32,930 bases of DNA. Origin: a virus. Made by a program: the position numbers and the translations under genes. This document shows positions 3,305-18,750 of this stretch, piece by piece. Positions within the stretch are counted from its first letter, which is position 1, and each line of letters opens with the position of its first letter. The notes under the pieces are model-generated. The model did not search any database. It saw nothing but the letters and a program-made list of their open reading frames with translations, and was not told the DNA's origin. Location of the stretch: IMG/VR virus record IMGVR_UViG_3300044634_000093, positions 1-32,930 of that record; one strand, 5' to 3'.

Positions 3305-4321
3305 TTAGTTGTTACCACGAGCACGGATTGCTGCAAGGATATCTTGAGCACTTGGCTTTGCTTCACCACTTGCAGGAGTTTTTACAGGCGCCGCTGCTTT
3401 GGGCGCCGACTCAAAAGGGATCTCGTCATCCTCGTCAACATGTGCTTCTGCAGGGCGTGGTTGTGCTACGCTCTTTGCTGCTGGCTTAGGTGAACTGTTG
3501 TTTGCTGCACTATTGCTAGTGTCAATTTGCACACCTGCTGGGCGATAGAAGTTGCCCCAACGTGCAGGATCATACAATTGTCCATCTACGCTTGCTTCAA
3601 ACATTTCATGGATAGCATTCAGTTCATCTGCATTTGGTTGCTTTGGAAGATAGTCATTGAGAGTAAACAAACCATGTGCAGCAATTGCATCACGTTCTTT
3701 ACTATCCAAGCTACGTTCACGGCGTGCCCAAGTGCTTGTGCTGTAGTCAGCATATTGACCTTTTTGTGACTTAGTAAGACGGAAGTCTGTACCTGCCTCA
3801 TAATCAGTTGGGATATTTTCAAAATCAGTATCCATCAATGCACCTTTGATGATCTTAAAGATGCTAGGATTAATAATAAACCGACGGATTGGATTCTCTG
3901 GGATCGATTCTTCTTGCAAGCTACTTTCTGGTACAAAGCCTTGGAATACATAGCTCTTTTTCTTCCAATACTTACGTCCCATTTCTTCAAGATTAGTATC
4001 TTTAAACCAACCACGCACTTCGCTAAGAATTGGGCAGCTACCTACAGGACCCCACATTTCGTTGCAAGGAACGTTAACAGTAACTTTTTTACTGTCGGGT
4101 TGTCCAACTACGCCGTTAAAGTCCAAACGGATCATTTGACGTTCACGCCAAAAGTAAGTGTTGCTTGCATCCCCATCTGGGAGGAAGCGCATCACACTAG
4201 TTGTATTTTCTGGGATGTTCCAAAACGGGAAAATTGCGTTATCCCCGCCTGAGTTACCGCCACCTTGTGTGCGGGTCTCTTGTTCTTTGAGCTTTGCTCT
4301 AATTTCTGCCAATGAAGCCAT
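3305..4321 (-). CDS. gp32: gp32 single-stranded DNA-binding protein
   Basis: The T4-type replication SSB, which coats single-stranded DNA and organises replication and recombination proteins. The 338-aa product has the basic N-terminal co-operativity region (LAEIRAKLKEQETRT) followed by a Gly-rich linker. The core contains the relic zinc region PCNEMWGPVGSCPILSEVRGWF (C86 and C96 spaced as in T4 C77/C87). The conserved YWKKKSYVFQGFVPE stretch follows. The C-terminal arm is Ala/Pro-rich and acidic (VDEDDEIPFES), as used for partner binding. The third Cys and the His ligand of T4 are absent. A consensus promoter (4391-4419), a leader of about 60 nt and a strong AAGGAG Shine-Dalgarno precede it; a terminator follows. 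Confidence 0.92.
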   Translation of the reverse strand: MASLAEIRAKLKEQETRTQGGGNSGGDNAIFPFWNIPENTTSVMRFLPDGDASNTYFWRERQMIRLDFNGVVGQPDSKKVTVNVPCNEMWGPVGSCPILSEVRGWFKDTNLEEMGRKYWKKKSYVFQGFVPESSLQEESIPENPIRRFIINPSIFKIIKGALMDTDFENIPTDYEAGTDFRLTKSQKGQYADYSTSTWARRERSLDSKERDAIAAHGLFTLNDYLPKQPNADELNAIHEMFEASVDGQLYDPARWGNFYRPAGVQIDTSNSAANNSSPKPAAKSVAQPRPAEAHVDEDDEIPFESAPKAAAPVKTPASGEAKPSAQDILAAIRARGNN

Positions 4322-4390: not shown

Positions 4391-4419
4391 ATTATATTAC
4401 GTTTTATTTATCTTGTCAA
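4391..4419 (-). promoter_or_regulatory. Consensus sigma70 promoter for gp32
   Basis: Minus strand TTGACA (4414-4419), 17-nt spacer, TATAAT (4391-4396): both boxes are perfect consensus. The -35 box overlaps the TGA stop (4416-4418) of the upstream 455-aa gene. The spacer also contains GATAAATA (4405-4412), a late-type box, so gp32 might be transcribed in both phases. Confidence 0.88.
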
Positions 4420-5783
4420 TTAAAAAGTTTGTTGATATCGTAACTTCCAAACACTTCTTCAATTCTGTGTTGCCAAGCGTTGGTATCATCACTCACTCTT
4501 ACATCTTCGCTTGCTTTGGTGGTAAACTTAGGCATCATCTGTCTAATAGCATTTGCTGCTGTGTTTAACATAGCACGATCTTTGACATTGTCAACCAAAT
4601 CGTTCATCCTAGCAAGTAATACCGATAGTTGATCTTGATCCTTGCCGCCGTCGATGATACCGCTAAGATATTCGAAGATAGCACCAAGTTGAACTTGGGG
4701 CAATGCGTTCTTAACTGTATTGTTAACTAGTGGGTTCTCTGGATCATTCTTGATATCAGTTCCGGCTTTTAGTCTAATAACTTTAGATTTATTAATCGTT
4801 GCTACTAGACTGTCAAGCGTTTCACGAGCAAAATCATCTGCTTCACTAACCGCTTGCATTTCTTTAATAAGTGCATTTACATATGGAAGTGCTTCTTCCA
4901 TGCCTTCATCAAATGTTCTAACTGTAAACTTGTCTTTAATCTCGCTCAAATCATCTTCATTAATAGTTGATTCTCTTGCTTTGAAGTCTTCGATAAAACG
5001 TGCATAACTTTTACCGCTTTTGCTTTTACTTAAAGTTTCACGGATTGTGTTGATTCTGTTAGCTACTGCTTCAATTATGTCCGAAGTGCCTTCATTAACG
5101 AGCCCGTTACGCTCAGTATAGCGTTTGAATTCTTTTAGCTTCTTTAGCTCGCTGCACTGTTCAATGATGTTTTTACCAAAGTCATCATAAGGATTACCAC
5201 CTTCTTTAACATGGCGTAGCATAGCACGACCGCCAGCTAAGTTGTTAGTTGGCAGTTTGTAACGTTCACCATCTGCATTTTCAATATAAATTGCTTGAAT
5301 GTTACGGCTGCGGCTTCCACGCTGTTCTTCGTTAACTGCTTTGTTATGCTTAATAATAAGTTTAGCAGATTCCAACTGTTGATAGCTACTCTTTGTGCTA
5401 CCGTATGCGGCGCTGATTCCTTCTGATACAGTGTTCATGTCTCTTACCTTTTGTGCTTGGTAATCAAAGTCCTTGGGAGTAATTTGCTTAGTATATGTCT
5501 TTAGCGTGTACTCTATAATGCTTTGATTAGCTAAATTTTTGAGTTGTCCTAGTGTGTCTTTTAGTTGTTTTATTTGTGTGCCTGCACTAACGCTAACTTT
5601 AAGTTCACGACGGTTATCAGTTTCGTCTAAGTTAACCATAGTGAATGCATCAGGCAAATAGAAACGTCTAGCGTCTGTTGCATCAACAGTTGCTTTGCCT
5701 TCGTCAGTAAACATATTCACTGTATGACCGTTGCCTTTGAGTATCTTAAAAATCTTATCTGCAACTGTTTCTGAACTCAACAT
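4416..5783 (-). CDS. Unrecognised 455-aa protein between gp17 and gp32
   Basis: A long, mostly helical, charged protein starting MLSSETVADKIFKILKGNG, with ARRFYLPDAF near residue 40 and several predicted coiled or helical stretches. I do not recognise a catalytic motif, signal peptide or membrane segment. Its size, its position beside the large terminase and the late-type box CATAAATA just upstream suggest a virion or head-assembly protein. INE and VNE tripeptides (STINEDD, GLVNEGTSD) loosely resemble T4 prohead protease sites but are weak evidence. The ATG at 5783 has only a loose purine-rich AAAGAGAAAG as ribosome-binding site. Confidence 0.8.
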   Translation of the reverse strand: MLSSETVADKIFKILKGNGHTVNMFTDEGKATVDATDARRFYLPDAFTMVNLDETDNRRELKVSVSAGTQIKQLKDTLGQLKNLANQSIIEYTLKTYTKQITPKDFDYQAQKVRDMNTVSEGISAAYGSTKSSYQQLESAKLIIKHNKAVNEEQRGSRSRNIQAIYIENADGERYKLPTNNLAGGRAMLRHVKEGGNPYDDFGKNIIEQCSELKKLKEFKRYTERNGLVNEGTSDIIEAVANRINTIRETLSKSKSGKSYARFIEDFKARESTINEDDLSEIKDKFTVRTFDEGMEEALPYVNALIKEMQAVSEADDFARETLDSLVATINKSKVIRLKAGTDIKNDPENPLVNNTVKNALPQVQLGAIFEYLSGIIDGGKDQDQLSVLLARMNDLVDNVKDRAMLNTAANAIRQMMPKFTTKASEDVRVSDDTNAWQHRIEEVFGSYDINKLFN

Positions 5784-5805: not shown

Positions 5806-5814
5806 GTATTTATG
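5806..5814 (-). promoter_or_regulatory. T4-type late promoter box
   Basis: CATAAATAC on the minus strand, overlapping the gp17 stop codon and lying 22 nt upstream of the 455-aa gene. It matches the T4 late promoter TATAAATA in 7 of 8 positions. Confidence 0.6.
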
Positions 5815-7366
5815 TTAAAAAGACAAAAGGCATTGGCGCCATATCATCTTCATCGCTAAACGTGTCTCTTAGCTCGTTATACGTAACTTCATCATATTGT
5901 GCTACTTCTTGTGTAATACGAACAACTAACAATAGCGCCATAACTAAGTCATCTGTTTCGCCATCTTTTGCAGCAAACCCACTACCACGAGCAACGAATG
6001 TTTTTAACTCACGTAGCAATGCACTACTTGCAATTTCAATACGTTCGCTTTCTACCCAAGTTTTTAGTTTACTACATGCGCTGAGTTTTGACTTGTTAGT
6101 AGTTGTAAAGCCTTTTCTGTAGCGTCTGCCTAAGTTGTTACCTTTGGGTTGACTTAGGAATGTTCCGGGGATGTTTTCTTCGCCCATTTCTTCGATAACA
6201 ACAAGTGCTGCTTCACCTAGTGTGTTGTTTTCAACACTCCAGTATATTTCTGCCTCAGGTGCTTCATCTTTTATTTGTTGCAGCATACCTTTGAGTATTC
6301 TAATTTGCTCAGTAACTGTGGTCTTGTTATGTTTCCACTCTGCTACTTGTTTCATGTTAGGCAGTTCAAATATTTGTATTGCAGCATTGTCGCCGCCTGT
6401 GCCTAAACTAGGATCAAGTCCTGCAATATATGTTTTTGTTCTATCAACATTCTTGTACCATCTAACTTGACCTGTGCGTTTCCAAGGTTCTCTAGATTCC
6501 ATAATGTTGAGTTTTAGACTGTTAATAAGTGTTTCGTCTGCAGTGATGAATTCACAGCCGTGTTCACGACGGAATCTTTCTTCGCCAATTTTACCTTGTT
6601 CTTCTGCTGCCCATTTTGCATCTCTGTCTGGGTGTTCACGCCAATCAACAAGTATGCTTTTAAATCCGTTGATACCAACTTCAGTTTCGTTGCCATACTC
6701 GTCTTGTGTTTTGTTTGCTTGTTTCCAAATTTGTGCAAATTGATCGTTGTCCTGGCTTGGTGTTGATGTAATAAAGCATTTACCACCAGTTGACAATGTT
6801 GGACTTATTGATGTCCAAAATTCACTTGCCACACGTGGAGGTACGAACGCAAATTCGTCTAAGTAAACCAGCGTAATACTCATACCACGACCAGTATTTT
6901 CTGTAGTTGCTTGTGCTACAATACGTGAGCCGTTGTCAAACTCTAAACTACCTTTGTTATATGCAGTTGCACCTGCACGAATGTGATCTGGACACATTTC
7001 ATACATATAACGAACACGTTGCATGATTTCCTGTGCGCCACTGTATTTGTGCGCTGCGATAAGGATAACGCTGTCTGGTTTAAACATTGCATACCATAAC
7101 AAGTATGCTGCTGCACAAGTAGACTTGCCCGTTTGTCTAGGTAGCATTGCTATGCTGTAGCGATAGTTGTGATACACATCAACTAAGCGGTCTTGATATC
7201 CGTATAGTTCAAACTTCAATCGCCCTTTGGTAGGGTGTTGGATGTAACAAAAGTTTTTAATAAAGTATTTTGGATCAACTGTGCAACGTGCAAGTTCTTG
7301 CAATTGAGTTGAAGTAAACTTTTCTTTACTATATGGTTTTTTAACTAAATCTGTATTTGCTGCCAT
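5810..7366 (-). CDS. gp17: gp17 terminase large subunit
   Basis: The ATPase/nuclease motor that packages DNA into proheads and cuts concatemers. The 518-aa protein has the T4-type order: adenine-binding region, Walker A-like MLPRQTGKST (residues 74-83), Walker B TLVYLDE (165-171, D170 and E171) and coupling motif STPS (201-204). The RNase H-fold nuclease follows, with acidic residues D318 (AGLDPS), E379 (WSVEN) and D472/D473 (ETDDLVMALL), corresponding to the T4 triad. It is shorter than T4 gp17 (610 aa). The ATG at 7366 has no Shine-Dalgarno; instead a late box CATAAATA ends 5 nt upstream, which predicts transcription starting at the ATG itself. A terminator upstream insulates the gene. Confidence 0.96.
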   Translation of the reverse strand: MAANTDLVKKPYSKEKFTSTQLQELARCTVDPKYFIKNFCYIQHPTKGRLKFELYGYQDRLVDVYHNYRYSIAMLPRQTGKSTCAAAYLLWYAMFKPDSVILIAAHKYSGAQEIMQRVRYMYEMCPDHIRAGATAYNKGSLEFDNGSRIVAQATTENTGRGMSITLVYLDEFAFVPPRVASEFWTSISPTLSTGGKCFITSTPSQDNDQFAQIWKQANKTQDEYGNETEVGINGFKSILVDWREHPDRDAKWAAEEQGKIGEERFRREHGCEFITADETLINSLKLNIMESREPWKRTGQVRWYKNVDRTKTYIAGLDPSLGTGGDNAAIQIFELPNMKQVAEWKHNKTTVTEQIRILKGMLQQIKDEAPEAEIYWSVENNTLGEAALVVIEEMGEENIPGTFLSQPKGNNLGRRYRKGFTTTNKSKLSACSKLKTWVESERIEIASSALLRELKTFVARGSGFAAKDGETDDLVMALLLVVRITQEVAQYDEVTYNELRDTFSDEDDMAPMPFVFLT

Positions 7367-7371
7367 GTATG

Positions 7372-7379
7372 TATTTATG
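7372..7379 (-). promoter_or_regulatory. T4-type late promoter, leaderless geometry
   Basis: CATAAATA on the minus strand, followed by CATAC and then the gp17 ATG. T4 late RNA starts 6 nt past the last A of the box, which here is the A of the ATG. Confidence 0.65.
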
Positions 7380-7384
7380 ATAGA

Positions 7385-7418
7385 AAAGGGTTACATTTGC
7401 TCTGAAATGTAACCCTTT
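7385..7418 (-). terminator. Strong stem-loop terminator before gp17
   Basis: A perfect 14-bp inverted repeat (AAAGGGTTACATTT and its complement) around a 6-nt loop, ending in CCCTTTTCT on the minus strand. It closes the unit ending with the 123-aa gene. Its 3' edge is a few nt from the gp17 late box. Confidence 0.85.
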
Positions 7419-7429
7419 GTTGTAAACCC

Positions 7430-7801
7430 TTAAAGGCCTGCTAAAACTTTAAGGCTAGATAATTCGTTTGATTGTGGCATTGACCCGCTGCATTCGTCCA
7501 TCCCATGCATTGGGCAATGTTCGCCCTCCATGGTCATATTGCACTGATCACCTTCTTGCACTGATTCTTCTGGAGTTCCTGCGCCTGACATATGTGCCGA
7601 CATACCATATTCCGCATCATACATTGTTTCTAACAGTTCGGAAAATGCACCATCTATATCTTGCAGATAATTAATGTCGCCGCCAGCAGCAGCAACAGCT
7701 TGTGCAAACTTACCAGAAGGTCTAAACGCTGATCTTAAATTTTCAAGCTGATTTAATGCTTTTGCAAATGTATTATGTATCTTAGCTTCATTGTTAGCCA
7801 T
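7430..7801 (-). CDS. Probable head-interior protein (123 aa)
   Basis: The N-terminal half is helical (HNTFAKALNQLENLRSAF). The C-terminal half is rich in Met, Cys, His and acidic residues (DQCNMTMEGEHCPMHGMDEC) and might bind a metal. It ends in SSLKVLAGL, the same ending type as the neighbouring 539-aa protein (SYLKRLAGL). The start codon overlaps the stop of that gene as TAATG, so the two are translationally coupled. A terminator follows. Position between the small and large terminase genes suggests a head role, but the function is unknown. Confidence 0.75.
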   Translation of the reverse strand: MANNEAKIHNTFAKALNQLENLRSAFRPSGKFAQAVAAAGGDINYLQDIDGAFSELLETMYDAEYGMSAHMSGAGTPEESVQEGDQCNMTMEGEHCPMHGMDECSGSMPQSNELSSLKVLAGL

Positions 7802-9420
7802 TATAGACCTGCCAATCTTTTTAGATACGAAATTGATTCGCTTACTTTTTCTTTATCTTTAAGTGCTTTTTTCATTGGCTCTTTTTTGTTGCCGTCTTTG
7901 TCCATGTCTAGGAAGTCTGGCTTTGCAGCTTCATTTGTTGATTCACTTGCACTCCAGTTACCAACTTTTTTAAGTTCGGGGCTGTTCCATTTCATAGCTG
8001 GTTCGCCTTTGATATTAGTTTGGTATGGTTTGCCGTTCCACATAAACGTACCGCCAGCACCGCCTGCCGCTTTACGAGCTGCACGGAATGCATCTTTAAA
8101 TGATGCAGGCTGTGGCGGTGCTTTAGGCATAGCTGCTGCCGGACCTTCTGGTCTTGCTCCGCCGGGAGTTGCTCTTGGCATAGCTGCTGCCGGACCTTCT
8201 GGTCTTGCTCCGCCGGGAGTTGCTCTTGGCATTCCTGCTGCTGGACCTTCTGGTCTTGCTCCGCCAACATTTGGGCGGCTAACAGGCGGTGTAATGGTTG
8301 CTGACTTGTCGCCAATTCTTGGAGTATTTGGCGCTAGCCCACGACCCTTCATTCCAAAATCTGGAGCAGCAGGCATTCCAGCAGCTGGACCTTCTGGTCT
8401 TGCTCCGCCTGGTAAACTAGGCTTAACTTTTTTAATTGCAACATCACCGGGAGCACCACTATCACCAGGAGACCATGGTGCTCGCTCTAGACCTTTAATA
8501 CCACTGCCAGCGGGCTGTCGCATCAAATTATCGCTGCCAGTAGTTTGGCGTAACTGCGGCATAATATCGCCTAGTGATTTAGCTATATTATTTTTAAATG
8601 ATGTTACTCCGGTTGTATTCATTCCAAATTTACCGCCACTAATACCGCCGCCAATGCCACCAGCTTCGTTAAGAAGTTGTCCGGAATTTTTTAGAACTCT
8701 ATTCAACTCTGAGATATAACTTTCGTTAATGCTTTCATTCATACCTGTTTCATCTTTTGCAAACTGGTCCCAATTAAAAGTGTTATTTCTAAATGTGCCT
8801 GTTGCACCAGTGTCATCTGTAATGCTCATACCTTCGGGATTTAGATTATGCTTCATAGCAAGTTCAACAAACTTATCTGCTAATGGGTTACCGGTCGTAT
8901 TGGCTCCGAAGTAACCATTCCAATCTTCTATTTTTTCGCCGTTTTTGTACAGTGTAATCATACCAAAATCTTCGCTATAGTCATATTCTATTGCAGCATA
9001 AGTGCTTGGCATTGCCTCATCTGATGCTTCATCAATACCTTTAGCAATTTTGTGTGCTTTGTTAATGGTTGATTTTTTAAGCGGCGGCTTATCACCAGTA
9101 GTTTTCATTGCCGACGCCATACCAATTGCATATGGGTTTTTTGCTTTTTCTGCAGTATACGCTTCGTATGATTCTAAAACGTCGTCCACGCTATAATCTG
9201 GGTAAGTTGTTTCATCAACACTTACAGGCTGTCCTCTAGCTTTTAAGTAACGGCGTAAGCTAGTGTCGCTAACGCTACCTAAGTTACTTGGTCCATCTGG
9301 GAATATCTGCGGATCTGGTTTAGTATTAGCTTTGCCAGGTACGTCTTCTTCAACTTCTGCGTTAGCTGCTGGACTATGTACTGCCAATCCTGCTAATTTA
9401 AGTAGATTAATCAAATCCAT
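7801..9420 (-). CDS. Repeat-bearing virion/head protein (539 aa)
   Basis: The protein begins MDLINLLKLAGL and ends VSESISYLKRLAGL, with the LAGL motif at both ends. Residues roughly 145-235 form a mixed domain (FGMITLYKNGEKIEDWNGYF). LLNEAGG near residue 250 fits the T4 prohead-protease pattern (L/I)xE. A Pro/Gly/Ala linker with 17-residue repeats of GGARPEGPAAxMPRATP follows. Near the C-terminus DMDKDGNKKEPMKKA resembles a DxDxDG calcium-binding loop. I do not recognise the family. It is probably a late structural or internal head protein. AAGGTG precedes the ATG. The GC-rich repeat contrasts with the AT-rich surroundings. Confidence 0.8.
   Translation of the reverse strand: MDLINLLKLAGLAVHSPAANAEVEEDVPGKANTKPDPQIFPDGPSNLGSVSDTSLRRYLKARGQPVSVDETTYPDYSVDDVLESYEAYTAEKAKNPYAIGMASAMKTTGDKPPLKKSTINKAHKIAKGIDEASDEAMPSTYAAIEYDYSEDFGMITLYKNGEKIEDWNGYFGANTTGNPLADKFVELAMKHNLNPEGMSITDDTGATGTFRNNTFNWDQFAKDETGMNESINESYISELNRVLKNSGQLLNEAGGIGGGISGGKFGMNTTGVTSFKNNIAKSLGDIMPQLRQTTGSDNLMRQPAGSGIKGLERAPWSPGDSGAPGDVAIKKVKPSLPGGARPEGPAAGMPAAPDFGMKGRGLAPNTPRIGDKSATITPPVSRPNVGGARPEGPAAGMPRATPGGARPEGPAAAMPRATPGGARPEGPAAAMPKAPPQPASFKDAFRAARKAAGGAGGTFMWNGKPYQTNIKGEPAMKWNSPELKKVGNWSASESTNEAAKPDFLDMDKDGNKKEPMKKALKDKEKVSESISYLKRLAGL
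8110..8262. repeat. 51-bp tandem repeats coding 17-aa Pro/Ala-rich units
   Basis: Two adjacent 51-bp units (8161-8211 and 8212-8262) plus a partial, slightly diverged copy (8110-8160). A further isolated copy lies at about 8371-8415. Each codes for GGARPEGPAA plus a short variable tail. The unit length is a multiple of three, so gain or loss keeps the frame. Confidence 0.9.
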
Positions 9421-9421
9421 A

Positions 9422-9922
9422 TTATTTCACCTTATATTCTGTGTATTGCTCTGACTTAGGTAAATTTTTAATAAACTTAGCAACGAAGTCGTTACCAAAG
9501 TTATCTTCGTGTTTTACTTTGGGAGAGTCTTTATAATCTGCATCGGCAAGCACACTGGTTGGCTCAGTTTCTTTTTCTGGCTTCTCATTCCAAAATTCTT
9601 CGCTCTCTAGTTTGCTGTGAACTACAATTGATTGCATAGGAATGCCAGTTGCCTTAGCAACTTCTTCATGCATAATATTTGCAGTAATAGGTAATTTGGT
9701 TGTAATGTCGATAATGTAAACTTCTGCAGGACCAAACTCAGCAAAGCCGTAAGGTGACTTCTGCATGATAGTTTTCTTCGGAGTACTAACGTTCTCCACA
9801 TTGTATTTCAACAGATGTGTTTTCAATCTATTGAACTGATCGTCTGACATTTCAGTAACACAACGAACTCTAAATTCGTAAGTTTTATCAGATTCTGCCA
9901 AATAATGTTTTAAAGTTTTCAT
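9422..9922 (-). CDS. Probable internal head protein with capsid-targeting leader
   Basis: A 166-aa protein beginning MKTLKHYLAES. This matches the T4 capsid-targeting leader of internal proteins (MKTYQEFIAEA in IPIII), including the gp21 protease pattern (L/I)xE, here LAE before S11. The mature part would begin SDKTYEFRVRCVTEM. It has a compact mixed domain with KTIMQKSPYGFAEFGPAEVYI and a charged C-terminal tail. It is probably packed into the prohead and trimmed at E10; the function of the mature protein is not recognised. AAGGA lies 12 nt before the ATG, and a late box (9945-9952) overlaps the end of gp16. The stop is 1 nt before the next gene's ATG region. Confidence 0.75.
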   Translation of the reverse strand: MKTLKHYLAESDKTYEFRVRCVTEMSDDQFNRLKTHLLKYNVENVSTPKKTIMQKSPYGFAEFGPAEVYIIDITTKLPITANIMHEEVAKATGIPMQSIVVHSKLESEEFWNEKPEKETEPTSVLADADYKDSPKVKHEDNFGNDFVAKFIKNLPKSEQYTEYKVK

Positions 9923-9944: not shown

Positions 9945-9952
9945 TATTTATC
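9945..9952 (-). promoter_or_regulatory. T4-type late promoter box
   Basis: GATAAATA on the minus strand, overlapping the gp16 stop and 22 nt upstream of the 166-aa gene. A second AATAAATA overlaps it directly downstream (9941-9948). Confidence 0.55.
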
Positions 9953-10469
9953 ACACGTTGCTGGATTTCATTCTGTCGATAACCGCATTGATTAAACTAT
10001 TTCTATCTTCAAATTCTTCTGCTTTGCCTTCATATGGCTCATCTTTTTCTTCTTTTAGTGCTGCATCCACTTTACGGGTATCTAGATCAAGTTTTGCTTT
10101 ACGCATCTGTAACTCGATCATTTTTAACTTTTTATCCATCTTTGCAGTTTTAGCAGCAATAGCATTTGTCATCATCTTACCAGCAACATCAAATACTGCT
10201 GCTGCATTTCTGTCATCAACATTTGCGCCCAAGTCCATTAATGTTTTGAATGCTTCCATTGCTTTTGCAGCATAATTGTCCATATCTTTATCATGTGTTT
10301 CCATATCACGCACTTGTGGCAATGCAGCATCAATCTTATCTGCATCAGCAAGTGTGCTTTGTAGCTTGTACAAGTCAAACCCAGTTTCATCTTCGTGGAT
10401 CGGAGCATCTATTTCTTCTTCAGCAGTTGCTGGCGGTAAGTCAAATATTTCTTCTATTTTTCTGCTCAT
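9951..10469 (-). CDS. gp16: gp16-like terminase small subunit
   Basis: The small terminase recognises DNA for packaging and stimulates gp17. The 172-aa product matches T4 gp16 in size (164 aa) and layout. The N-terminus is acidic and starts MSRKIEEIFDLPPA (T4: NLFNLPHAS). A central helical pair follows, with DDRNAAAVFDVAGKMMTNAI (T4: SDHPRAYEVVGQLIKTVTD). Next is a long charged coiled coil (AKMDKKLKMIELQMRKAKLD), then an acidic tail. The ATG overlaps the gp4 stop (ATGA), so it is translationally coupled. Recognition rests on pattern, not an alignment. Confidence 0.75.
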   Translation of the reverse strand: MSRKIEEIFDLPPATAEEEIDAPIHEDETGFDLYKLQSTLADADKIDAALPQVRDMETHDKDMDNYAAKAMEAFKTLMDLGANVDDRNAAAVFDVAGKMMTNAIAAKTAKMDKKLKMIELQMRKAKLDLDTRKVDAALKEEKDEPYEGKAEEFEDRNSLINAVIDRMKSSNV

Positions 10470-10903
10470 TTTCGTTTTCCTGGATTGTTGAATAATTCAT
10501 TTTCAGTGAGGACTCTAAATCCCACACCTTGCTTTTCTGCAAACATTTTTGCTGCTGACCATTTTGCTTCGTTAATAACTGCTGCTGCTTTTTGTTGCGG
10601 GCTGCGGGCTGCACCTAAGATTTGTCCTGCGGGCTTTATCTCAATGAACTCAGCTTTACGTACCCCGTTCTTATCTTCATATATCATAAAGAAGTCGGGA
10701 ACATAAACAGTTGATTTACGTGTTAGGGGATTAATGTAAGGGATGCGGTGGCTTTCGCTTGCCCATGCAACAATGTTTGGGTGGGCATCTAACACTCTCA
10801 TAAATTTCAATTCCCAACTGCTTCTGTATCTCGGAGAATGTTTTCCGATATACTTTGCGGGGTTTTTCATTTCGAATATACCTTGTTGATACTTACTTGT
10901 CAT
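10466..10903 (-). CDS. gp4: gp4 head completion protein
   Basis: In T4, gp4 (also called gp50/65) completes filled heads before tail joining and has a nuclease-like fold. The 145-aa product fits the family length. Its core is YRSSWELKFMRVLDAHPNIV, then YVPDFFMIYEDKNGV and KAEFIEIKP. The E in SSWE, the D in VPDF and the ExK in FIEIKP form a PD-(D/E)XK-type active site. It lies upstream of gp16, which it overlaps by 4 nt. The ATG at 10903 has no Shine-Dalgarno. GATAAATA ends 8 nt before it, which predicts a transcript with a leader of about 3 nt. Confidence 0.9.
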   Translation of the reverse strand: MTSKYQQGIFEMKNPAKYIGKHSPRYRSSWELKFMRVLDAHPNIVAWASESHRIPYINPLTRKSTVYVPDFFMIYEDKNGVRKAEFIEIKPAGQILGAARSPQQKAAAVINEAKWSAAKMFAEKQGVGFRVLTENELFNNPGKRK

Positions 10904-10911
10904 TATATAGG

Positions 10912-10919
10912 TATTTATC
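10912..10919 (-). promoter_or_regulatory. T4-type late promoter, near-leaderless geometry
   Basis: GATAAATA on the minus strand, then CCTATATA and the gp4 ATG. With T4 late start-site spacing the RNA would begin 3 nt before the ATG. Confidence 0.6.
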
Positions 10920-15461: not shown

Positions 15462-15490
15462 AAACTACAACAAAAATGAACACTTGTCAA
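15462..15490 (-). promoter_or_regulatory. Sigma70-type promoter for the kinase gene
   Basis: Minus strand TTGACA (15485-15490), 17-nt spacer, TAGTTT (15462-15467). The -35 box contains the TGA stop of gp13 (15487-15489). The -10 is weaker than in the other early promoters. Confidence 0.7.
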
Positions 15491-16227
15491 CCAATAATAA
15501 TACCAAGCCCAACGCTACCGTCAACATAAGTTTTCAACTCATCTTCTAGCTTGTCAATGCTTGCTTGTGCATCTGATCTTAGCGCCTCTGCATTAAGACT
15601 AGTACCGCCTTGTGGACCTGCAATAGTTCCAAACTTACCACGTGCCTCTGATAACATTAGTTTTGCATATGCAAGTGCCAATTCTTTAATCCAAGGTGCG
15701 CTATAAGGATCTGTTAACAATTCTTCATCGGTTCGATACTTGTAAACGTGCAAGTATACAGTATCTTCTGCTTTTTGTCTGCGACCAATAAACAATTTTT
15801 TGGTTACAGTATTCCAAGTAAAGATAAGTTTTTCACCAAAAATTCTACTAAGTGTTTCTCTGTTTTGTGCAAGGAAATCAAATGTAGCCATGCCGCCAGA
15901 CATACCACTATACAGTAGGAAGTTATTCAAGTATGCAGTTTCAAAAGGTTCAATATCTCCGCCACTGCTGCCGTTCAAATGACCGCCTGTTCGTCTATAG
16001 ATATCCTTAACATCAATAATCTCGTCCGGTAATGTATATTCAGTTGTGTCTATCTGTAGTACGAGTGAGATGAAAGATTCTTGTACGGAGTTTTCTGCTC
16101 GTTGACGATATTTTTCGCCAGCTTTACGAATAGCTAACTCGTAATGCTCTGGGTCAAGTTCTACGTCGACCATTTGACCGCCTAAGCGGAGTTCGATTTC
16201 TTTGATGAGTTGATTTATCTTTGCCAT
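15487..16227 (-). CDS. gp13: gp13 neck protein
   Basis: In T4, gp13 joins gp14 in the neck that seals the filled head and accepts the tail. The 246-aa product aligns by pattern with T4 gp13 at the N-terminus: LIKEIELRLGGQMVDVELDP against [20 protein letters not shown], then a helix (YELAIRKAGEKYRQRAE). It then has TTEYTLPDEIIDVKDIYR, a Gly-rich loop, LIFTWNTVTKKLFIGRR and the C-terminal helix WIKELALAYAKLMLSEARGKF. No Shine-Dalgarno precedes the ATG at 16227; CATAAATA ends exactly 5 nt upstream, the same layout as at gp17. Its usual partner gp14 is probably the divergent gene at 17659. Confidence 0.85.
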   Translation of the reverse strand: MAKINQLIKEIELRLGGQMVDVELDPEHYELAIRKAGEKYRQRAENSVQESFISLVLQIDTTEYTLPDEIIDVKDIYRRTGGHLNGSSGGDIEPFETAYLNNFLLYSGMSGGMATFDFLAQNRETLSRIFGEKLIFTWNTVTKKLFIGRRQKAEDTVYLHVYKYRTDEELLTDPYSAPWIKELALAYAKLMLSEARGKFGTIAGPQGGTSLNAEALRSDAQASIDKLEDELKTYVDGSVGLGIIIG

Positions 16228-16232
16228 GCTAA

Positions 16233-16240
16233 TATTTATG
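16233..16240 (-). promoter_or_regulatory. T4-type late promoter, leaderless geometry
   Basis: CATAAATA on the minus strand, then TTAGC and the gp13 ATG. The predicted late start site is the A of the ATG, as at gp17. Confidence 0.65.
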
Positions 16241-17642: not shown

Positions 17643-17650
17643 GCTAAATA
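17643..17650 (+). promoter_or_regulatory. Late promoter box (CTAAATA type), near-leaderless
   Basis: GCTAAATA on the plus strand, then TATATATC and the ATG at 17659. The 8-nt gap equals that before gp4. It is the only promoter-like signal seen for the plus-strand structural operon. Confidence 0.5.
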
Positions 17651-17658
17651 TATATATC

Positions 17659-18750
17659 ATGCCACGTTTATCAATGTATCAACCAACCAAAACGAACGAC
17701 TACAAATTTATGGACCGCACTATCCGTGAGCAGTTCTGGATAGGTGGTGTTGCGGCTATTATCCACAAATATGTTGGTCCTGCAGCACAACCAGACATGA
17801 ATGATCCCACTCAACCCAACTATATGGACGGTAGAGAGGTTGATCCACTAAGTGGTGAATTTATTAATGTTGATGGTATACTTAACGAAACAAAAATTCA
17901 AGACTTACTGTTTATGGAAAACAGAGATCGAAAGTATGATCCTGACATTTACGAATTGCGTGGTGTTTACAATGTTAGCGACAACGACTTTGATCTTAGC
18001 CAATTTGGATTATTTCTTAGCAACGATACGTTTTACATGACATTCCACATTAATGACATGGTAGAAATACTGGGACGCAAACTGTTATCAGGTGATGTTA
18101 TTGAACTACCTCACCTTAGAGATGAATTATTGTTAGATACGGGCAGACAAGCAGTTAACAAGTATTTCGTTGTTAATGATGCAAGCAAAGGCTCAGAGGG
18201 ATTTAGCAAAACATGGTATGCACATATTTGGCGTGTAAAACTTAGCCCGATTAACGATGCACAAGAATACAGAGATATACTTGGTAGTGAGCATGACGTT
18301 AACAGTCTCAAAAATGCTGTTAGCACATATAAAAGTGAATTTAACATTAGTGATGCTATTGTTGCTAGTGCTGCACAGGACGATCCAATTGGAAAATCTT
18401 TAATAGATCACTTGTTTGGATATGATTATGCAACAAGTGGTGGTATTGTTAATCGTGATGGTACTTACAATCACGGCGAAACAATATCAAGTGGCGGAGA
18501 ATTTCCAAATAATCCAAACGAAGGTGACTTCTTTATACGTAGTGATTTTTCACCCGCAAGAATGTTTGTTCGTAGAGGTAGCAAGTGGAACAGACGCTAT
18601 GATAATATAACAGATAAAACATGGACTGATCGTACCTACAATGCTAGCGGATTTATTAATAATGAACAACACACGACAGTTGTTGATAATCAAGAATTTA
18701 AAGAAAAACAAGCACTTAGCGATGTTATATTGCCTAAGTCAGATACATAA
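17659..18750 (+). CDS. gp14-like neck/virion structural protein
   Basis: A 363-aa protein starting MPRLSMYQPTKTNDYKFMDR. The region NIQDLLF-like sequence (IQDLLFMENRDRKYDPDIYE), then NDFDLSQFGLFLSNDTFYMTFHINDM and LSGDVIELPHLRDE, resembles the gp14 neck plan (FGxxxxDxxTFxI...GDLIxFP). Assignment to gp14 is by this pattern and by sitting opposite gp13, and is not certain. Residues about 275-315 form a Trp-ending module (NPNEGDFFIRSDF...SKW) like those in gp18 and gp15. The ATG at 17659 is preferred over an upstream TTG at 17638, because it matches the family-like N-terminus; it has no Shine-Dalgarno and a late box 8 nt upstream. Confidence 0.72.
   Translation: MPRLSMYQPTKTNDYKFMDRTIREQFWIGGVAAIIHKYVGPAAQPDMNDPTQPNYMDGREVDPLSGEFINVDGILNETKIQDLLFMENRDRKYDPDIYELRGVYNVSDNDFDLSQFGLFLSNDTFYMTFHINDMVEILGRKLLSGDVIELPHLRDELLLDTGRQAVNKYFVVNDASKGSEGFSKTWYAHIWRVKLSPINDAQEYRDILGSEHDVNSLKNAVSTYKSEFNISDAIVASAAQDDPIGKSLIDHLFGYDYATSGGIVNRDGTYNHGETISSGGEFPNNPNEGDFFIRSDFSPARMFVRRGSKWNRRYDNITDKTWTDRTYNASGFINNEQHTTVVDNQEFKEKQALSDVILPKSDT

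Follow-up and report, generated by a model that had tools for sequence, protein, structure and literature searches.

Late promoter boxes abutting start codons suggest leaderless mRNAs for the terminase and other late genes in a group of marine T4-like phages

Late transcription of phage T4 is a textbook system, and the late genes of T4 carry leaders. The terminase gene gp17 studied here raises the question of how a late gene is expressed when its promoter box lies almost against the start codon. In the window, by which we mean the whole stretch of DNA analysed, a 33-kb virus fragment of a marine T4-like phage, the minus strand between 7379 and 7364 carries a T4-type box, five nucleotides and the gp17 ATG, with no Shine-Dalgarno (SD) sequence in reach. 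This arrangement, from which the initial annotation had predicted a leaderless mRNA starting at the A of the ATG, was confirmed. We consider it very probable, judging from the sequence comparisons below, that the gp17 late box starts a leaderless mRNA at the A of the AUG, and that gp17 thereby belongs to a conserved class of such genes. That gp17 is one of many genes with this five-nucleotide spacing goes beyond what had been proposed. The features at gp17 are the following.

7372..7379, minus strand: late promoter box CATAAATA of gp17 (T4-type); its NATAA(A/G)TA form is kept in relatives
7367..7371, minus strand: spacer CATAC, 5 nt, predicted -5 to -1, with a pyrimidine at -1
7364..7366, minus strand: gp17 start codon ATG; its A (7366), at position 6 after the box, is the predicted +1
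5810..7366, minus strand: gp17, terminase large subunit, 518 aa (phrog_36964, E 8e-138)
7385..7418, minus strand: terminator-like hairpin separating the gp17 box from the upstream gene; its perfect stem has 14 bp and its loop 6 nt

The gp17 start site and other boxed genes of the window

Read on the minus strand, the region is ...TTTTCTAT CATAAATA CATAC ATG GCA GCA..., and a T4-type octamer resembling TATAAATA is thus present as CATAAATA at -13 to -6 relative to the predicted start. No SD-like tetramer was found in the 20 nt scanned upstream of the ATG. The ATG is the real start of gp17, since the alignment with homologues begins at residue 1 and an in-frame TAA nine codons before the ATG, with no alternative ATG, GTG or TTG in between, excludes other starts. 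The motif NATAAATA occurs nine times in the window, counting both strands (about 1.4e-4 per position); its exact placement at 5 nt is expected by chance about 0.004 times over 29 genes, compared to two cases observed. Both occurrences of NATAARTANNNNNATG in the window are at gene starts, those of gp17 and the head-tail adaptor gene, and the reversed control of this pattern had zero occurrences there. The initial annotation had also described the neighbours of gp17 as SD-led, which is correct for 14 of the 21 other window genes without a box (about two thirds) and incorrect for the remainder.

In the window, the gene upstream of gp17 ends at 7430, 63 nt ahead of the gp17 start, and the hairpin lying between them folds with -16.9 kcal/mol (z -6.0), with no SD between the hairpin and the gp17 start. 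A simple terminator scan of the window made no call at this hairpin because its T run lies partly within the stem. Its terminator-like nature is backed by the folding and by the relatives: a strong hairpin directly before the box, usually followed by a T run, was present in 13 of the 14 gp17 relatives with five-nucleotide spacing, in which the hairpin sequences vary while the layout is constant. A candidate sigma-70 promoter for the gp17 region (TTCAGA-18-TATCAT, 9/12) was rejected, as its -35 element lies inside the hairpin and the promoter is not conserved in relatives.

The window holds further boxes, at the same, a slightly longer or, for contrast, a leadered distance.

16225..16240, minus strand: second identical geometry, CATAAATA + TTAGC + ATG; same 5-nt spacing in the homologues of contigs G001 and G004
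15487..16227, minus strand: head-tail adaptor gene (phrog_211), predicted leaderless
10901..10919, minus strand: near-leaderless geometry, GATAAATA + CCTATATA + ATG, with a predicted 3-nt leader AUA
10466..10903, minus strand: head closure gene (phrog_218)
17643..17661, plus strand: near-leaderless geometry, GCTAAATA + TATATATC + ATG, of a virion structural gene (phrog_11591)
5807..5814, minus strand: leadered box CATAAATA, 23 nt upstream of the ATG that opens the virion gene at 4416-5783
9945..9952, minus strand: leadered box GATAAATA, 22 nt upstream of the ATG at 9922; the leader contains AAGGA

Both the head closure gene and the phrog_11591 gene have the box 8 nt upstream, and in both of them position 6 is an A that follows a pyrimidine. 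The 8-nt spacing of the head closure gene is also found in its G001 and G004 homologues, and the phrog_11591 gene has the 5-nt form in its homologues of the same two contigs. The long open reading frame of the phrog_11591 gene begins at TTG 17638 and its homologues begin at MPRL, corresponding to ATG 17659, which is likely the true start, the TTG being misassigned.

Other features of the window were noted in passing. In the interval from gp17 to the virion gene upstream of it, 7801-9420 on the minus strand encodes a protein with near-identical internal repeats, rich in Ala, Pro and Gly and built of units of about 51 bp (near 8130-8260 and 8380-8410), for which the PHROG match was weak and confined to the C-terminal end. 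A perfect sigma-70 promoter (TTGACA, 17 nt, TATAAT; 12/12) is located at 4391-4419 on the minus strand, upstream of a gp32-like ssDNA-binding gene (3305-4321), and two further sigma-70 promoters scoring 11/12 are found at 775-747 and 262-234.

Box spacing and start codons across the clade

For every ATG that opens a reading frame of 50 codons or more, the distance from NATAA(A/G)TA was determined in the window and in five contigs related to it (G001, 198 kb; G002, 75 kb; G004; G005; G006), together called the clade here; contigs G001-G010 are metagenomic. The distances were bimodal. A sharp group comprised 22 cases at exactly 5 nt, flanked by 2 at 4 nt and 3 at 6 nt; another 3 stood at 8 nt, there were none at 9-11 nt in the window and the five contigs, and a second, broad group followed at about 17-29 nt. 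Twenty letter permutations of ATAAATA, used as a control, gave about one case per distance and no peak at 5 nt, and NATAAATA alone was found at 5 nt 18 times in the clade vs about one expected (p ~2e-16 against permuted boxes). All 22 starts at 5 nt in the clade were ATG, with no GTG and no TTG. An SD was present in 31 of the 38 clade genes with a leadered (17-29 nt) box, and an SD motif was found upstream of none of the 17 five-nucleotide and none of the seven eight-nucleotide genes of the clade.

The bases around the predicted start point in the same direction. C or T immediately preceded the ATG in 21 of 22 five-nucleotide starts, whereas at the remaining ATG starts the share was 42% (p 2e-7), and when one gene per family was counted in the clade, HTVC008M, Mosig and Melnitz, a pyrimidine at -1 was found in 27 of 28 families (p 1e-9), hence the -1 signal does not result from repeated counting of homologues. 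A pyrimidine at -1 and an A at +1, here on the start codon, would fit an initiator signature. Position 6 after leadered boxes was a purine in 88% of cases in the clade, 77% in T4 and 95% in Syn9, with an enrichment over other boxes that reached significance in G007 alone (p 0.005, compared to 0.07 in the clade, 0.11 in T4 and 0.09 in Syn9), and this purine richness supports a +1 at position 6 without making use of the ATG.

The same counts bear on a different reading, according to which the A/T-rich element is no promoter and instead serves translation of a longer mRNA without an SD, as an A/U-rich site bound by the ribosome or by S1. The element does occupy the SD position, and about half of the box-less genes in these phages are also without an SD motif. 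However, its spacing is held to one nucleotide (5 nt, with few cases at 4 or 6), unlike that of ribosome sites, permuting the letters of the box yields no peak, and GTG and TTG starts are absent from the five-nucleotide class. Moreover, the octamer is also found 17-29 nt ahead of SD-bearing genes and a terminator-like hairpin stands ahead of the gp17 box. We therefore regard a translation signal of this kind as distinctly unlikely.

The five-nucleotide class of G001 includes three related proteins, at 136842 on the plus strand and at 61122 and 63433, the latter two counted on the reverse strand, which, judged by eye from their clustered cysteines, look radical-SAM-like.

Conservation of the arrangement in gp17 relatives

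The gp17 homologue set comprised eighty loci, among which the close relatives (74-85% identity) represented 16 distinct upstream regions. Their box has the form NATAA(A/G)TA and reads ACTAAGTA in one of them. The initial annotation had suggested checking whether related phages keep the 5-nt gap, and 14 of the 16 distinct close relatives do so, with spacers that differ among them (CTACT, TTACT, GTTGT, GTTAT, TACAC and ATACT). The remaining two have an 8-nt gap, CTACTATA and TTACTACA, in which position 6 is an A following a T, and the predicted +1 is thus still an A. The kept gap, together with the features of the five-nucleotide class, supports the leaderless gp17 mRNA with +1 on the A of the start codon that had been predicted. 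From L021 (71%) outwards the gp17 homologues have no box, indicating that the trait is a property of the clade and not general for gp17, and many of these distant homologues have a start codon overlapping the upstream stop (ATGA). The best cultured gp17 relative, PA5oct, shows the layout of a hairpin followed by ATG and has no recognisable box.

In PA5oct, a terminator-like hairpin (L120 1340-1376; MK797984, 128839-128875) holds the annotated terminase start in its loop. Judged by homology, the gene starts 27 nt downstream of the annotation, at an ATG that follows the hairpin with no SD or late box.

These relatives also allow a second alternative to be weighed, in which a genuine promoter contributes only a minor leaderless RNA, most translation of gp17 taking place on a longer read-through mRNA by coupling to the upstream gene. 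Such an arrangement would resemble that of the distant homologues, which overlap their upstream gene and have no box, and the two close relatives with 8-nt spacing are without the hairpin. In the window, however, the upstream gene stops 63 nt before gp17, and the 14-bp hairpin lies between the two with no SD after it, which makes predominant read-through very unlikely. Finally, although boxes with one mismatch abound in the window (74 matches, 69 expected), the enrichment at the exact spacing over permuted boxes and the conservation in relatives refute the idea that an A/T-rich octamer stands near the ATG by coincidence, leaving it practically no probability.

Proposed mechanism and comparison with known systems

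In the leaderless reading that we prefer, the gp17 box would be a T4-type late promoter of the gp55 class, with transcription probably starting at the A of the AUG. The intrinsic terminator presumed just upstream would stop the RNA of the preceding gene, and therefore most gp17 message would originate from gp17's own start. Other late genes of the phage group would use the same box 17-29 nt upstream and an SD-bearing leader, while on messages of the leaderless class ribosomes, probably as 70S, would bind the 5'-terminal AUG directly. We infer the start position, the gp55 dependence, the terminator function and the ribosome route from sequence.

Outside the clade, the Pelagibacter phage HTVC008M has 9 five-nucleotide genes vs about 0.5 expected, all at annotated CDS starts (6280, 7562, 16007 and 18916 on the minus strand, 19456, 31132, 49760, 75559 and 142360), and their products include a gp2-type DNA end protector, the tail tape measure, two baseplate proteins and CsgF. 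The signal is weaker in Mosig, with 6 genes, and in Melnitz, with 3, and the DNA end protector homologue is a five-nucleotide gene in all three phages. Weak enrichment (p ~0.03) was seen in PA5oct (4 genes) and G007 (5 genes). There were no five-nucleotide genes in T4, Syn9 and S-ShM2 and one in P-SSM2, which is chance level. A search for the pattern gave no match whatever in KVP40, Phosso and Vibrio 2.275, and 121Q and Atu_ph07 showed no clear excess over the reversed control.

One may speculate further that a whole late regulon is leaderless by design, and that the phage alters the host ribosome late in infection, e.g., by its own bS21, which would make 5'-terminal AUGs strong competitors of SD-led host mRNAs. 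The bS21 protein (PF01165) is encoded by HTVC008M, Mosig, Melnitz, PA5oct, G007 and G002, and was looked for and found absent in T4, Syn9, S-ShM2 and P-SSM2. Nevertheless, the link is weak because Phosso, Atu_ph07 and Vibrio 2.275 also encode bS21 without a 5-nt excess. As a cause of leaderlessness bS21 was thus rejected and is only a lead, and we hold the extended reading to be distinctly unlikely.

T4-type late promoters depend on gp55, gp33 and gp45 and have the sequence TATAAATA, or NATAAATA in cyanophages. The promoters described here share the octamer, have no -35 requirement and are predicted to start transcription some 6 nt beyond the last A. The relatives G001, G007 and PA5oct of the window phage, and HTVC008M as well, encode a gp55-like sigma. 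In T4, about one helical turn separates the start from the late TATA box upstream of it (PMC2988020), and the cyanophage late octamer has N at the first position (PMC2984593), as does the box of the window. Unlike in the T4-type system, NATAAGTA is used as well in the window clade and in pelagiphages. Furthermore, the late genes of T4, Syn9 and S-ShM2 are leadered, whereas a large share of those in the clade and in pelagiphages have a box positioned for leaderless mRNA.

The pelagimyophages HTVC008M and Mosig and the OM43 phage Melnitz show the same 5-nt peak, sometimes right after a terminator, but they belong to a different family (Kyanoviridae), and gp17 of HTVC008M and Mosig overlaps its upstream neighbour and is outside the five-nucleotide class. 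Prediction of late promoters in pelagimyophages was reported to be unsuccessful (PMC7029224), for which boxes abutting start codons may provide an explanation. The five-nucleotide genes would escape gene and promoter finders built on the assumption of a leader. If our reading is true, late promoters would also set the translation route of a large set of SD-free, AUG-initiated virion and packaging genes in marine relatives of T4, and HTVC008M on Candidatus Pelagibacter offers a cultured test case.

We found no earlier description of leaderless late mRNAs in T4-like phages in the open-licence literature; phage transcripts are described as often leaderless in general in the AR9 paper, AR9 itself having UTRs of 26-491 nt. 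The cI mRNA of phage lambda made from PRM is leaderless. With bacterial and phage leaderless mRNAs in general, the genes described here have in common a promoter some 12 nt upstream of a start that is always AUG and has no SD. The established mark by which leaderless bacterial genes have been found in silico is a -10-like signal some 10-12 bp ahead of the start (PMC3160421), and ribosomes load onto leaderless mRNAs mostly as 70S particles that bind the 5'-terminal AUG directly, with a strong AUG preference in E. coli (PMC9031893) that matches the AUG-only starts of the five-nucleotide class. Unlike in bacterial leaderless genes, the signal here is a phage late-promoter octamer, probably read by a different sigma class, and unlike known leaderless mRNAs, those proposed here would serve virion and packaging genes, whose products are needed in quantity.
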